DNA of 64,000 bases from IMG/VR virus record IMGVR_UViG_3300009093_000035, positions 184,580 to 248,579 of that record; one strand, given 5' to 3'. This DNA comes from a virus. Shown one piece after another: positions 3,938 through 32,424 of the stretch. Every line of letters begins with the position of its first letter. Position 1 is the first letter of the stretch. A program made the translations under genes and the position numbers. The notes beneath the pieces are model-generated. The model did not search any database, was not told the DNA's origin, and saw only the letters and a list, made by a program, of their open reading frames with translations.

Positions 3938-4013
3938 TTCGGGAGGAAGGGGTCGAACCTTCTTCTGCGGATTCAAAGTCCGCGGTCCTAGCCAGCGCGT
4001 AGACGACTCCCGA
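3938..4013 (-). tRNA. tRNA-Gln(TTG), second copy
   Basis: Acceptor TCGGGAG/CTCCCGA and anticodon loop CTTTGAA. The body differs from the first Gln(TTG) gene, so it is not a recent duplicate. No CCA. Confidence 0.9.
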
Positions 4014-4196: not shown

Positions 4197-4269
4197 TGAC
4201 CCCACGGGGAATTGAACCCACGTTCCGGAGGGTGAAAATCTCCGATCCTAACCAATAGACGATGGGGCC
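4197..4269 (-). tRNA. tRNA-Glu(TTC)
   Basis: Acceptor GGCCCCA/TGGGGTC; the D-arm begins TCGTCTA as in bacterial tRNA-Glu; anticodon TTC. No CCA. Confidence 0.9.
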
Positions 4270-4393: not shown

Positions 4394-6028
4394 TCACAGT
4401 GCCGCAGCCGCCTCCTGAGCGGCGACCGGGGCCGGGGCCTTCTCTTCGAGAGAGACGGCCTCGATCTTCTTCACCCAGTGATCCTTGCCCGAGCCCTTGA
4501 CGAACTCGGTCATGAGGGTGAAGACCTCGTCGGAGAAGCCGCCGACGTTGAGGATGTCCTCACGCGTCGGAGCCTGGCGAGAACCGTTCGGCGCGAGGTC
4601 GATGCAGACCATCTTCGCCTTCGGGTTCCGAGCGCGGAGAGCCTCCCACTCGACCATCGCCGCCGTCGGAGACGACGTGTGGCCAGAGGTGTAGGCGTTG
4701 TGGACGACCTTCGTGTCCATCCACGACTCGTTGTCCGAGGCGTAGGTGACGGCGTCCACCTTCTCCTTGTTGTGGTTGAGCGCCCTCATCGGCGCCGAGC
4801 AGTTCGTCCCGCCCGGCGGGCAAGACGCGATCTGGTTCGCGATCGTCATGATCGAGTCCCGCGGGTTGAACCGAAGGTTGATCACGTTCTCCGTGAACGG
4901 GAGAACGATCGCGTCCGGGTTCCGACGCATGAGCGTCGCAGCGATCAGGGCCGCCACGTCACGGCAGGTGACCTTCGTCGCCATCTCGCGCTTCCCCGTG
5001 ACCGGAGACGCCATCGACCCGGAGACGTCCGGGAAGACTGCGATTCGACCCTCGAAGGCCGGAACGTTCTTCGTCGCGATCTCCATCGCGTCCTGGAGAG
5101 CGTTCTGGACCTCCATCGGGACACCCGAGGTGTTCCGGTAGGCGATCAGGAGCTGGTACGGGAAGACCCGAGCCTTCGCGATCGACTCCTCGTCGCGGAG
5201 CTTCGCAGCGATGATCTTCACCATCGCCTTGTCCTCGAAGACGCCGTGGCGGAGGAACGTGTTGAGGTTCATCCGCACCGTCTGCCACGAGGCCGAACGT
5301 GCCAGCTCGATCCACTGGGCCTTCGTCAGCTTCGTGTTCGTGAGCATCAGGAACGGCACGTCCGGGATCGGACGCGACGGATCCTTCTTCCACGCCTCGA
5401 ACTCACGAAGCAGCGGGTCCGCCTTCTCCAGGTCGAACTTCTTCCCCACGAGCCACGCGTAGGTCTCCTTCCGAGCGTCCGTCGCCGGCTTCGGGTGGAC
5501 CATCTTGATCACGTCCGCGATCGACGGCTTGTCGCCCGTCGCCCGGATCAGCTGAGCATCGGTGCGCGCAGCGAACCACGCCTCGACCATCTTCTTCGGA
5601 GCCGTCCCGAGGGACTTCCGGCCGACCTTCCCGGAGCGGATGATCTGGACGAAGTTCCGGACCATCTTCGGGTTGTCGAGGATCCGCGAGAACGACGCCC
5701 GAAGGGCCGCGATACCTGCCGGTCCCCGAGTCGTGAGGTGAGCCGCGAGGAGCGCCGGAGCGTCCTTCATGAAGGCGGACTTCCGCCCGTAGACGGCCGT
5801 CTTCGCGACGAACTCCGGAGAGACCTCGGCCGCAAGCTTCAGGATCGCGTCCAGCTGCTCCTCGTCCGACGTGTAGAACGTCGACCCGAGACAGCCGGTT
5901 GCGGTGTACTGAGCGAGGGCCTCCTTCGGGCCCGCCTTGTAGGCGAGACCGCCGGCCGCGTTGAACATGTCGGCGATCGGCGCGACGCGACCCGCCGGAG
6001 CGGACTTGAAAAGCTTCTTGTTTGCCAC
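4394..6028 (-). CDS. rsr: Ro60/Rsr ortholog (TROVE domain RNA-binding protein)
   Basis: A 544-residue protein of the Ro60 family. Ro proteins form a HEAT-repeat ring that binds Y RNAs on its outer face and misfolded RNA ends in its cavity. The start ANKKLFKS ... DMFNAAGGLAYK and YTATGCLGSTFY match the TROVE N-terminus. Residues 334-338 (DVSGS) form the metal-binding motif of the C-terminal von Willebrand A domain, with PGGTN downstream. The GTG at 6028 has a GAAGGGG site seven bases upstream and gives the family-like start; an in-frame codon at 6160 would add 44 residues including the PEGTPIQL repeat. It sits inside the tRNA array with six Y-like RNAs within 8 kb. Confidence 0.93.
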   Translation of the reverse strand: MANKKLFKSAPAGRVAPIADMFNAAGGLAYKAGPKEALAQYTATGCLGSTFYTSDEEQLDAILKLAAEVSPEFVAKTAVYGRKSAFMKDAPALLAAHLTTRGPAGIAALRASFSRILDNPKMVRNFVQIIRSGKVGRKSLGTAPKKMVEAWFAARTDAQLIRATGDKPSIADVIKMVHPKPATDARKETYAWLVGKKFDLEKADPLLREFEAWKKDPSRPIPDVPFLMLTNTKLTKAQWIELARSASWQTVRMNLNTFLRHGVFEDKAMVKIIAAKLRDEESIAKARVFPYQLLIAYRNTSGVPMEVQNALQDAMEIATKNVPAFEGRIAVFPDVSGSMASPVTGKREMATKVTCRDVAALIAATLMRRNPDAIVLPFTENVINLRFNPRDSIMTIANQIASCPPGGTNCSAPMRALNHNKEKVDAVTYASDNESWMDTKVVHNAYTSGHTSSPTAAMVEWEALRARNPKAKMVCIDLAPNGSRQAPTREDILNVGGFSDEVFTLMTEFVKGSGKDHWVKKIEAVSLEEKAPAPVAAQEAAAAL

Positions 6029-6052
6029 GGTAACACCCCTTCGAACAAAGGA

Positions 6053-6085
6053 GGGCTCTGGCAACTGGATAGGAGTTCCTTCAGG
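6053..6085 (-). repeat. 33-bp repeat, copy A
   Basis: Thirty of 33 bases match a plus-strand copy at 14426-14458. On its own strand it can encode PEGTPIQLPEP and lies just upstream of the GTG start of the Ro gene. Confidence 0.75.
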
Positions 6086-6229
6086 AAGATTGAACGTGAG
6101 GTCGTTGACGACGAACGCTTGCGTAGAGCGTTGTCCGCGGAGGTTCAGGAGGCTGATCAATTCCTCCCGTAGGCAAGCCTACTTAGCACCAACGTAGAGC
6201 GTCGCCGACAACTCGGCCTGACCTCACGA

Positions 6230-10437: not shown

Positions 10438-10523
10438 TTGTATTAGATCGAAGTTACGGAAGTTACCAGACCTTATCGAACCTCATGGTAACTCTCGGCT
10501 ACATGGACGGAACCAGAAACCAG

Positions 10524-10594
10524 AGCGGGCAGCGAGAATCGAACTCGCGTCTTCGGCTTGGAAGGCCGAGGCCAAGCCACTTGACCATGCCCGC
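10524..10594 (-). tRNA. tRNA-Gly(TCC)
   Basis: Acceptor GCGGGCA/TGCCCGC, anticodon loop CTTCCAA. Confidence 0.92.
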
Positions 10595-10606: not shown

Positions 10607-11012
10607 TGGACTCGTCCGGAATTGAACCGGAGTCCACGAAGTCTACTACGATCGAGTACCACGCGCGTCTTCAACTCTTACGCCTGTCTTTCTAACGAGG
10701 AAGGCGCGAGGCTTGACAACCTCTCTTTCGGAACTCCCCGCGAAGTCTGCTCGGTTCCCCGCCTCGACTTCGATCGTCCCTCAGATCGCCTTTCGGCTCC
10801 CGCTGAGGTACAGCCGGGATTCCCCTAGCTCGATTACGCCAACGAGGAGAGTGCTAGGGACTCTCCTCGCCGACGGATCAGGCCGCCTGAGCGAGCTGAT
10901 CGTAGCTGCTGTCGTTCGCAGTTACTGTTGGTTGGCTTGATAACCCGGCCTGCCTACCACCCGGAGCGCGCACTCTCTCGTTTCGAACCCCATGTCGAAA
11001 CCTGTCGAGCCC
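10607..11012 (-). ncRNA. ssrA: tmRNA (transfer-messenger RNA)
   Basis: A complete one-piece tmRNA of about 406 bases. The 5' end GGGCTCG pairs with the 3' CGAGTCC, with a G3-U70 pair that marks alanyl-tRNA synthetase substrates. The start continues ACAGGTTTCGACATGGGG, like bacterial tmRNA. Near the 3' end is a T-arm TCCGG-TTCAATT-CCGGA. The tag ORF at 10878-10919 reads ANDSSYDQLAQAA then TGA, with TAACT just before the GCG resume codon. No CCA is encoded. tmRNA with SmpB rescues stalled ribosomes and tags the product for proteolysis; no smpB gene is seen here, so host SmpB would be needed. Confidence 0.93.
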
Positions 11013-11028
11013 GAAGACACTAGACCAG

Positions 11029-11101
11029 AGCCATCGGCGGGAGTTGAACCCGCGACCTCTCGCATACCAAGCGAGCGCTCTTCCAACTGAGCTACGAAGG
11101 C
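11029..11101 (-). tRNA. tRNA-Thr(GGT)
   Basis: Acceptor GCCTTCG/CGATGGC with one T-T mismatch, anticodon loop TTGGTAT, T-loop TTCAACT. Confidence 0.87.
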
Positions 11102-11106
11102 AAAAG

Positions 11107-11179
11107 AGCCGGCAGGGGCGCTCGAATCCCCCATCTCCCGCTTACGAAACGGGCGCATCGCCATCTATGCTTTACCGGC
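11107..11179 (-). tRNA. tRNA-Thr(CGT)
   Basis: Acceptor GCCGGTA/TGCCGGC, anticodon loop TTCGTAA, T-loop TTCGAGC with one T-stem mismatch. Confidence 0.87.
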
Positions 11180-12239: not shown

Positions 12240-12371
12240 CGGGTGACAAGAGCGGAGAAGACGTTTTTTGGACTGCCGCTCTACCATCTGAGCTACCACC
12301 CCCTTTCGGAGACGGGCGGGACTCGAACCCGCGACCCGCAGTGTTGTTGTAGTCCTATTCCAATTCACCCG
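12240..12371 (-). ncRNA. Y-RNA-like RNA (Y-a)
   Basis: 132 bases. The ends pair CGGGTGA/TCACCCG; the 5' strand continues to GGACTACA and the 3' strand carries CTCTTGTC. Inside is a circularly permuted tRNA-like module: T-arm GCGGG-TTCGAGT-CCCGC, then CCGTCTC, a CGAAAG-type loop, GGGGTGG, a D-arm GCTC/GAGC, and GCAGT pairing back to ACTGC. This is the layout described for bacterial YrlA-type Y RNAs, which bind Ro through the terminal stem. The 5' end is one base past tRNA-Arg(CCT). Confidence 0.72.
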
Positions 12372-12747: not shown

Positions 12748-12769
12748 GTCAACGAACGGAAGGAAAAGT

Positions 12770-12904
12770 TTGGGCGACAAGTGTTGGCGAAGATCTTTTC
12801 GTCGCTCTACCAACTGAGCTACCGCCCCGTGAAAGTGGGGCGGGCTGGACTCGAACCAGCGGCCTCCGGCTTGAAATGCTGTAATCCTCTCCGAATTCAC
12901 CCAA
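12770..12904 (-). ncRNA. Y-RNA-like RNA (Y-b)
   Basis: 135 bases with ends TTGGGTGA/TCGCCCAA, 5' motif GGATTACA and 3' motif CACTTGTC. The permuted tRNA-like module is the clearest of the set: T-arm GCTGG-TTCGAGT-CCAGC, CCGCCCC, a short CACTTTCAC-type loop, GGGGCGG (seven perfect pairs), then TA and a D-arm GCTC-AGTTGGTA-GAGC. The 5' end is one base from tRNA-Arg(TCG). Confidence 0.72.
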
Positions 12905-29888: not shown

Positions 29889-30859
29889 GGCTTCGCTCCG
29901 GGCTTCGTGATCCACGGGTACATCTCTCTCCCGAGGTGGGCGAAGAGGGGCGTCAGAGGACCCAGGTCGGGGAAGGGGACTCCGGACGCTTCGGCGATCG
30001 CCGCTACTCGACACGCCGCCTGAAGGGTCAGGGTAGCCGGGAAGACGTTCACGGCGAAGGCCTCAGGGACGAGGGAGTAGGCGATGTCGACCCTCATGTG
30101 GGGTTCGGACTTCGGGTCGTTCAGTACTTCGACGGTCAGGGTCGAAGGGTCTGCGCCCTGGAGCTTCACGAGGCCGCGGTAGTAGAAGCTCGCCTCGGAG
30201 AATGGAGTGGGGTGGTAGTGACTTCGACGAAGGATCGGATTCACGAAGTCCGGTCCGAAGTAGAGGACCCGACTCTCCCCCGTCGCCATTCCCGCTTCGA
30301 GAACGTAGGCGAAGGGGATTCGCTCGTGGTGAGCGAAGAAGAGGTAGACGCCGATCGCTCCGAAGCGAGAGCCTCCGGATCGAACGGGCGAGATGACATG
30401 GACCCGGTCGAGGGCCGGGAACTTCATGTTCAGCGTCGTCGCCATGTCTGCGAGGTACTCGCGAGCGAGCGTCATCGAGTAGAGCTTGTGGTCTCCCGCG
30501 TACATCGTTCCGATCGGAGTCTCGATCGGGGAAGTCTCCCACCCGTCGAGAACCGAGACGCGAGCGAAGTAGAGCTGAACCGGGAAGCGAGACTCGATCG
30601 GGGAAGTTCGGTGGTGGGTTCCCGTTCCGACCCAGTAGTCCACGATCCGCGGATCCGCGCGCGGATCGCGCGGCGGAGGAGCCGGATCGGTCGCGTGGAA
30701 CGAATCGATCCCGTGGCCCTGGAAGAGCTGGGGGTGCTTCGCCGCCGCGTCCTGGAGACAACGGAGACTCGCCTCGACGGCCTCGGGGGTGATGATCACT
30801 TCAGGGTCCGGGAACGCGGTCCGAAGAAGCGAGGACACGGTCTGGTTGAGGTCAGTCAT
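29885..30859 (-). CDS. Unknown protein downstream of the GroEL-like gene
   Basis: A 324-residue protein (MTDLNQTVSSLLRTAFPDPE ...) with an AAGGTGAG ribosome site. Its ATG overlaps the GroEL-like stop as ATGA, so the two are made together. Segments such as GVYLFFAHHERIPFAYVLEAG suggest a globular alpha/beta protein. No family recognised. It might be a client of the chaperonin. Confidence 0.7.
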   Translation of the reverse strand: MTDLNQTVSSLLRTAFPDPEVIITPEAVEASLRCLQDAAAKHPQLFQGHGIDSFHATDPAPPPRDPRADPRIVDYWVGTGTHHRTSPIESRFPVQLYFARVSVLDGWETSPIETPIGTMYAGDHKLYSMTLAREYLADMATTLNMKFPALDRVHVISPVRSGGSRFGAIGVYLFFAHHERIPFAYVLEAGMATGESRVLYFGPDFVNPILRRSHYHPTPFSEASFYYRGLVKLQGADPSTLTVEVLNDPKSEPHMRVDIAYSLVPEAFAVNVFPATLTLQAACRVAAIAEASGVPFPDLGPLTPLFAHLGREMYPWITKPGAKP

Positions 30860-32424
30860 CGTCTCACCTTGGCGATAAGGACTCCACCGCAAAGTGCGAT
30901 CTGGCAAGCGACCGAAACCGCATTCCGAACTGACGATCGGACCACTTCTGTAGGGTCGACGATCTTCGGAGCTTTTCGGAGGTCCCTCCAGTTCTTCTTC
31001 ACGAGGTCGTACCCGAGCCAACCGGTGGTATCTTTCGAGAGACGAGCTTCAGCCTGACCTATCAGGACCGGGGCTTCTTCCCCCGCTCTCTTCGCGAGAG
31101 ACCCGAAAATCGAGCGAAGTCCGGACCTCAAGATCGAAGCTCCGACCGTCTCCGGGAGGTCGAAGGAAGCCGCGAAGTACGTCCGACCCGCCCCGGGGAC
31201 GATTCCACCTCGTAGGGCCGTCTCCGCAGCCCGTAGGGCATCCTCCACCCGAGACCGACGGTCCTGTGCCTCTTGCTTCGTAAGGCCGCCTACGCGAAGC
31301 GTAGCCAGGCCCCCGTCCAAGGTGCTCGCTCGTTCGGTGAGCTGGTCGCGTTCGAACGGGTACTCGGAGGATTCCGCCCGGGCTCGAAGGGAGGAGACTC
31401 GGCGATCGATCGCGGACAAGATCTCCTCGTCCATGTACGAGACGAGGAGGGTTCGGTCTTTCGAGATCGTAGCTCGTCGGGCGTACCCCAACCAGGAACC
31501 TTTGAACTGATCTGCGGGACGACCGGCGTCAGGATCTACAAGCGTCGAGTTCGTGACGGTCGTGAGATCCTCCAACCAGTCGAGAAGATCTCCAGGAGAC
31601 CCGCTGTAGTCCACCGCGACGCAAGAGAGGACCCCCTTCTTGTCGTTCACGAGGATCGTAGCGAGGGCCTCCCCGGAAACGCTCGGGGCGAAGATCAGAA
31701 GACCGCGTCCGGGCCATTGGGTGGCCGCCTCCATCGCAGCGGCTACGTCCTCGGACTTCCGAAGCGGCCGGCGGAAGACCGCGACGAGAGGCCCGTCCAT
31801 CTCTCGTTCGTTCGCTCCTTCCGGAGCCATCGCGTACGAGACCCAACCCGAACGAAGAAGGAGCCCCTCCTTCTGTTCGAGGACGATGCCGGTCCCCTCG
31901 TGGGCGGCGATCACAACGGAGCCTTGTTCCCCAACTCCTAGGACGGCTTCCACGACCTTCTCCGCTACGAGCGGGTCCTCGTGGGACGCCATGTGGGCGA
32001 TCCGCGAAAGACTTTCCTCGTCCGGGGGCGCCGAGAGCTTCGAGATCGAGGCGTCCGCGATTTCCGCGGCTGATCGGATCTCTTGAACCACTCGAACGGG
32101 ATCCCAATCTGGAGCTACGGCGAGCTTTCCGATCTCTCGAAGTAGAGCGCTCGTCAGAAGAACCGTCGTCGAAGTCCCGTCCCCTACTTCAGCCTCGGTC
32201 TTCAGGGCCGCCGTTCGAACCAACGTCGCCCCCAGACGTCGCTTCCCTCCGAGTTGGCTTTCTCGGGTGAGGGCGGCCCCGTCGGTCGTGACGAGAACGG
32301 ATCCGTTCTTCGCGACCATGACCTTCCCGCCCGCGGGCCCGTAGGTCTTCTCCACCACACGTGCGACTTCGTGGACCCCCTCGGAGAGCAGGACCCACAC
32401 CTTCCGTTGATCCAAGACCGGCAC
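30856..32424 (-). CDS. GroEL-like chaperonin
   Basis: A 522-residue group I chaperonin relative. Diagnostic pieces in order: KTYGPAGGKVMV, VTTDGAAL, VGDGTSTTVLLTSALLR (ATP-binding GDGT), EQKEGLLLRSGWVSY (apical region) and ALRGGIVPGAGRTYF. Bacterial GroEL is about 545 residues, so this is near full length. The divergence is large (VGDGTST for the usual GDGTTT). Phages that encode GroEL use it to fold their own proteins. No groES gene is seen nearby. The GTG at 32424 is the only start compatible with the family N-terminus; its ribosome site is weak. Confidence 0.88.
   Translation of the reverse strand: MPVLDQRKVWVLLSEGVHEVARVVEKTYGPAGGKVMVAKNGSVLVTTDGAALTRESQLGGKRRLGATLVRTAALKTEAEVGDGTSTTVLLTSALLREIGKLAVAPDWDPVRVVQEIRSAAEIADASISKLSAPPDEESLSRIAHMASHEDPLVAEKVVEAVLGVGEQGSVVIAAHEGTGIVLEQKEGLLLRSGWVSYAMAPEGANEREMDGPLVAVFRRPLRKSEDVAAAMEAATQWPGRGLLIFAPSVSGEALATILVNDKKGVLSCVAVDYSGSPGDLLDWLEDLTTVTNSTLVDPDAGRPADQFKGSWLGYARRATISKDRTLLVSYMDEEILSAIDRRVSSLRARAESSEYPFERDQLTERASTLDGGLATLRVGGLTKQEAQDRRSRVEDALRAAETALRGGIVPGAGRTYFAASFDLPETVGASILRSGLRSIFGSLAKRAGEEAPVLIGQAEARLSKDTTGWLGYDLVKKNWRDLRKAPKIVDPTEVVRSSVRNAVSVACQIALCGGVLIAKVRR

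Follow-up and report, generated by a model that had tools for sequence, protein, structure and literature searches.

Genes for tmRNA (ssrA) are found in about 2% of phage genomes (402/18,146; PMC9004378), and are known from Bxz1, Wildcat and phage G (PMC4131195); in huge phages both tmRNA and SmpB are on record (PMC7162821). The first-pass annotation of the DNA described here had called phage tmRNA rare: it is indeed uncommon, but as an already known kind of gene it was given too much weight by that word. Published ideas on why phages carry it include the upkeep of the hijacked machinery and the degradation of host proteins. In E. coli the AANDENY part of the tag is bound by SspB, the box motif being AANDxxY, and the ALAA end is directed to ClpX (PMC8512704); for ClpXP, the Ala-Ala at the very end matters most (PMC7652416).

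The closest described systems resemble the present locus in different respects. Streptomyces cluster BE1 phages (PMC5764925) also carry a single tmRNA alongside 43-48 phage tRNAs, but they are ~130-kb phages of Streptomyces hosts and their tmRNA has no nucleotide similarity to ours at blastn sensitivity. Mycobacteriophages Bxz1, Wildcat and others and Bacillus phage G (PMC4131195) share the possession of a phage ssrA, although hosts and lineages differ. The huge phages of Al-Shayeb et al. (PMC7162821) are alike in genomes above 200 kb and in translation genes including tmRNA; SmpB was reported there, whereas none was found in the present virus record with Pfam models, nor in 50 related records, many of them fragments. 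Methylophage Melnitz (PMC9004378) also has a complete ssrA, for which a role in maintaining or redirecting the host machinery was proposed, but its tmRNA is a two-piece molecule with a glutamine riboswitch, while the one described here consists of one piece and gave no riboswitch match. Finally, Pseudomonas phage pf16 (PMC5587285) encodes SspB, as does one relative of our phage (G003); pf16 was reported without tmRNA, whereas this relative has both, and the record studied here has no detectable SspB of its own.

The tmRNA gene and its conservation

The analysed window (64,000 nucleotides) makes up the final 64 kb of a virus contig of 248,579 bp (248.6 kb). Major head protein, portal, terminase and ribonucleotide reductase are encoded elsewhere in the record, which bears out the earlier description of the tmRNA as phage-encoded; family A DNA polymerase and RecA are encoded in the record as well. 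The DNA polymerase was considered as a link to cultured phages and was dropped, as the tblastn hit was absent. Relatives were gathered by an IMG/VR scan with the neighbouring Ro60-like protein, which yielded close relatives; among 50 related records, the tmRNA score exceeded the family cut-off in 16. Two relatives, G002 (252 kb) and G003 (199 kb), are syntenic with the window record and each has a tmRNA homologue; their major head proteins are 94-96% identical to that of the window record, and matched frames average ~55%.

ARAGORN and Rfam concordantly identified a full-length, one-piece tmRNA gene of 406 nt on the minus strand at 10607-11012. A complete tmRNA had been read from the letters in the first-pass annotation, and ARAGORN returned identical coordinates and the same tag, ANDSSYDQLAQAA, followed by a stop. 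The Rfam search proposed there did not reject the fold: the match to RF00023 covers positions 1-374 of the 374 of the model and scores 95.9 bits (E 4e-36; gathering score 47), and such an end-to-end match excludes chance. Most of the sampled bacterial tmRNAs score higher (130-215 bits), thus the pseudoknot domain is partly divergent; the alignment to the Rfam model has an accuracy of 0.77.

All landmarks claimed previously (tRNA-Ala-like ends with G3-U70, the 5' block, resume codon, in-frame tag and T-arm) could be located in the sequence. The 5' tRNA-like domain called by ARAGORN (10987-11012, minus strand) contains the acceptor strand GGGCUCG with G3, followed by the GGUUUCGAC block; the 3' domain (10607-10642, minus strand) contains the T-arm, the acceptor strand CGAGUCC with U70 and the discriminator A. 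The 3' CCA is not in the DNA, the Rfam match ending in ATCC. The GGTTTCGACATGGGG block, the T-arm and the resume codon GCG were all recognized in the tmRNA. The tag is encoded by an open frame, GCG..TGA, at 10878-10919 (minus strand), preceded by the frame-setting A at -4 of the resume codon (10923, minus strand) and by U at -5, the counterparts of A86 and U85 of E. coli; A86 is essential in E. coli (PMC2481249), and the -4 A is conserved in all three phages.

The three phage tmRNAs were aligned, and pairs were predicted from the same alignment with pseudoknots excluded. The seven pairs of the acceptor stem, including G3-U70, are invariant, so that the alanine-type G-U pair is present in 3/3 phages. 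Compensatory change, in which both sides vary and pairing is kept, was seen in 32 predicted pairs; four of the five T-stem pairs behave in this way, and a strong helix 3' of the tag also shows it. Comparison of the tag codons with those of G002 revealed five silent changes, every one at conserved residues, and five replacements, all in variable positions: the changes are silent in AND.SY and in the final AA, and alter amino acids in between. This pattern, from a tiny sample of three close homologues, fits selection acting on the encoded ends of the tag. The gene at 10607-11012 is a genuine, conserved phage tmRNA; it has no look of decay and is apparently maintained.

Position of the gene and the tRNA array

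The tmRNA sits among about 45 tRNA genes in an array that occupies 3.8-15 kb of the window, and it is placed exactly between tRNA-Thr(ggt) upstream (11028-11101, minus strand) and tRNA-Gly(tcc) downstream (10523-10594, minus strand). These two tRNAs are direct neighbours in the relatives G002, G003 and L116, being 10, 8 and 4 bases apart, respectively. In G002 and G003 the tmRNA gene stands downstream of the major head (capsid) gene, at a distance from the tRNA array. This is most simply explained by a move of the tmRNA into the array in the lineage of the window phage, and the two positions suggest different transcription units.

The 3' CCA is unencoded in every tRNA called in the array. A nucleotidyltransferase of the CCA-adding/poly(A) polymerase type adjoins the array (16647-17855, plus strand; Pfam PolyA_pol, E 1.5e-14), matching NCBIfam tRNA_CCA_actino with 84.6 bits, under the equivalog cut-off of 438.8; it is a candidate finisher of the CCA-less tRNAs and of the tmRNA. 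Four further tRNA-like Rfam matches had no ARAGORN call (3942-4010, 4197-4269, 11107-11179 and 14798-14879, minus strand), and are possibly degenerate tRNAs or tRNA mimics.

A Ro60/TROVE protein (4394-6160, minus strand) also adjoins the array, and two YrlA-like Y RNA matches lie within it (12252-12371 and 12768-12903, both minus strand), with 39.9 and 51.3 bits against an Rfam cut-off of 69. G002 and G003 likewise have a YrlA-like match next to tRNA-Arg(cct) (59.0 and 48.1 bits), which corresponds in site to 12252-12371 of the window, thus the window may contain a duplicate. From these matches it seems likely that the phage forms a Ro-Y RNA particle. Additionally, genes of RNA repair and tRNA upkeep were found at 34-64 kb of the window and in the rest of the record, namely Thg1, RlaP, an RNA ligase and a Swiss Army Knife RNA repair HAD domain; together with the tRNA array they suggest a defence against tRNA-cleaving host systems. 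A GroEL-like chaperonin (30856-32424, minus strand) shares 47% identity with one in a 485-kb uncultured phage, and less than 30% with the remaining matches listed.

The tag and its partners

With the charged alanine included the full tag reads AANDSSYDQLAQAA; the coded tags of G002 and G003 are ANDNSYALTAIAA and ANDNSYASAAIAA. When the charged alanine is counted, the SspB-binding box AANDxxY is present as AANDSSY in the window phage and as AANDNSY in both relatives. The terminal LAA is replaced by QAA in the window phage and by IAA in the relatives, the final AA being retained. The coded tag is 13 residues long in all three phages, compared with 9-11 in 81/89 bacterial tags, a sample in which Burkholderiales, Myxococcota and Ro60-bearing genomes are over-represented. 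In the same sample LAA ends 77 of the 89 tags, in agreement with the first-pass annotation, which had singled out the QAA terminus, and neither QAA nor IAA occurs in any. Phage tags are less uniform, LAA being the end of 43/77 distinct IMG/VR tags, therefore an odd tag end alone is weak evidence.

The same pattern was observed in a second pair of large phages, L189 (G006) and L184 (G043), with ANDNAFVPMAQAA versus ANDNAFAMAA: the tag is again three residues longer with a QAA end. No near-identical phage tmRNA was found by blastn among 50,697 phage records, and no identical tag in the IMG/VR search, the scope of which may leave out records very near the window.

How Q or I at the -3 position acts was not found in the literature searched. 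An engineered tag, AANDENYSENYADAS, combining a longer spacer with a weak end, was degraded in vitro only with SspB in the E. coli system (PMC8512704). Purely by analogy, the phage tags could likewise be adaptor-dependent, and their degradation has possibly been retuned. Protection of viral products by the tag, as proposed in the earlier annotation, is not implied, since the terminal Ala-Ala-COO-, the top ClpXP element (PMC7652416), is retained; the tag data would fit tuning of degradation better than protection.

As for the protein partners, no SmpB turned up in the record or in the 50 related records, many of which are fragments, therefore that of the host is presumably borrowed, and the tmRNA most likely needs it. 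SspB was undetected in the window record and in the searched G002 with Pfam models and an HMM built from fetched SspBs. G003 encodes a 131-residue SspB homologue (L298, 10222-10614, minus strand), adjoining a ThyX-like frame. It carries the SspB domain (PF04386, 42.2 bits against a cut-off of 27) and matches PDB SspB chains with E 2e-4, and it scores under the NCBIfam equivalog cut-offs. Its C-terminus, TPKVLKGGKS, bears a loose likeness to the LRVVK-type ClpX-docking motif, with an extension. An earlier report of SspB and tmRNA in one phage was not found in the part of the literature covered.

The SspB of G003 clusters, on a long branch, with Myxococcota SspBs and not with those of Burkholderiales or E. 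coli, and among cultured phages Myxococcus phage Mx1 has the closest full-length Ro60 (43%). Burkholderiales had been considered as host on the basis of the similar tags ANDNSYALAA and ANDSSYALAA; this was abandoned, there being no such kinship of the tmRNAs and the G003 SspB falling with Myxococcota. Our guess for the host is Myxococcota, somewhat short of an even chance. An SspB-family gene stands directly beside ssrA in three genomes of the phylum (L441, L442 and L444), and in L443 by a Pfam match; this linkage supports an SspB-tmRNA partnership in Myxococcota.

Discussion

The gene is probably an ordinary functional tmRNA of a large tailed phage of ~250 kb, which would rescue ribosomes with host SmpB during infection and possibly hand the tagged chains to host ClpXP. 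It would be transcribed together with the phage tRNA array, and its CCA end would be added by the phage nucleotidyltransferase or by a host enzyme. Host alanyl-tRNA synthetase might charge it through G3-U70, and host SmpB and EF-Tu would bind the charged molecule. During infection it would free ribosomes that have stalled on broken messages, and add AANDSSYDQLAQAA to the stalled chain. Delivery of the tagged chains to host ClpXP is what we infer from the retained SspB-type box AANDxxY and the terminal AA. The least certain step concerns the extended tag: having Q or I rather than L ahead of AA, it may be recognized less well by ClpX directly, and its degradation may depend more on SspB. It would be a reasonable idea, also put forward in the first-pass annotation, that the phage gene keeps rescue going after destruction of the host tmRNA, although the host would still need to supply SmpB.

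The phage tmRNA might simply do the work of the host tmRNA as a redundant dosage copy, with ribosome release outweighing the exact tag and the divergence of the tag being neutral drift. We give this even chances: tags vary widely among phages, the middle of the window tag is free to change, and tag function is not critical for the formation of phage plaques in E. coli (PMC2481249), but silent codon changes preserve both ends of the tag, and the shared length of 13 and the non-L residue before AA are not predicted by plain drift.

These same features could reflect selection for weak direct recognition by ClpX with SspB delivery kept, the fate of the chains hanging on the adaptor. The box and AA are kept, the spacer is longer and the -3 residue is changed in 3/3 phages; QAA and IAA were met in 0/89 bacterial tags, one relative (G003) has an SspB homologue, and the in vitro behaviour of AANDENYSENYADAS (PMC8512704) provides a precedent. 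Nevertheless we consider such selection unlikely, as the terminal AA matters most (PMC7652416), the window record and G002 are without SspB, and odd tag ends are common among phages.

It is highly improbable that the RNA serves mainly as an inhibitor or decoy sequestering host SmpB, as suggested for tRNA-like fragments, e.g. in phage DS6A. Strong inhibition of tmRNA by a tRNA-like molecule, perhaps by SmpB titration, is cited in PMC4131195, and no phage SmpB was found here; however, DS6A has little beyond the tRNA-like domain, while our gene has an intact resume sequence, tag frame and stop, and its tag is apparently conserved at both ends. Contamination by host DNA, or a host gene captured recently and now decaying, for which host ssrA pieces left in some phages by imprecise excision (PMC9004378) could be quoted, is already largely refuted and has a negligible chance, because the gene is flanked by phage tRNAs, has homologues in two syntenic phages and is at most 56% identical to the sampled bacterial tmRNAs, no lineage being favoured; recent host capture was dropped on these grounds, and the doubt of the first-pass annotation, that a host gene had been copied recently, goes with it.

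Beyond functional rescue with host SmpB, a bolder view, which we hold to be quite unlikely, would be a phage lineage with re-specified trans-translation, whose tag is gripped poorly by host ClpX alone and is still deliverable by SspB, making the fate of the chain adaptor-dependent; G003, with its own SspB, could then control both tag and delivery.

Phage tmRNA as a kind is already known, and what goes beyond the routine is the pattern of the tags, the altered location of the gene and the SspB of a relative. The family provides a handle in its tags, which have the adaptor box and the AA end together with a new length and -3 residue, and it also offers an SspB gene in a relative and a tmRNA repositioned between related genomes. 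The question at stake is whether phages merely add a rescue RNA, or alter the fate of the tagged protein.
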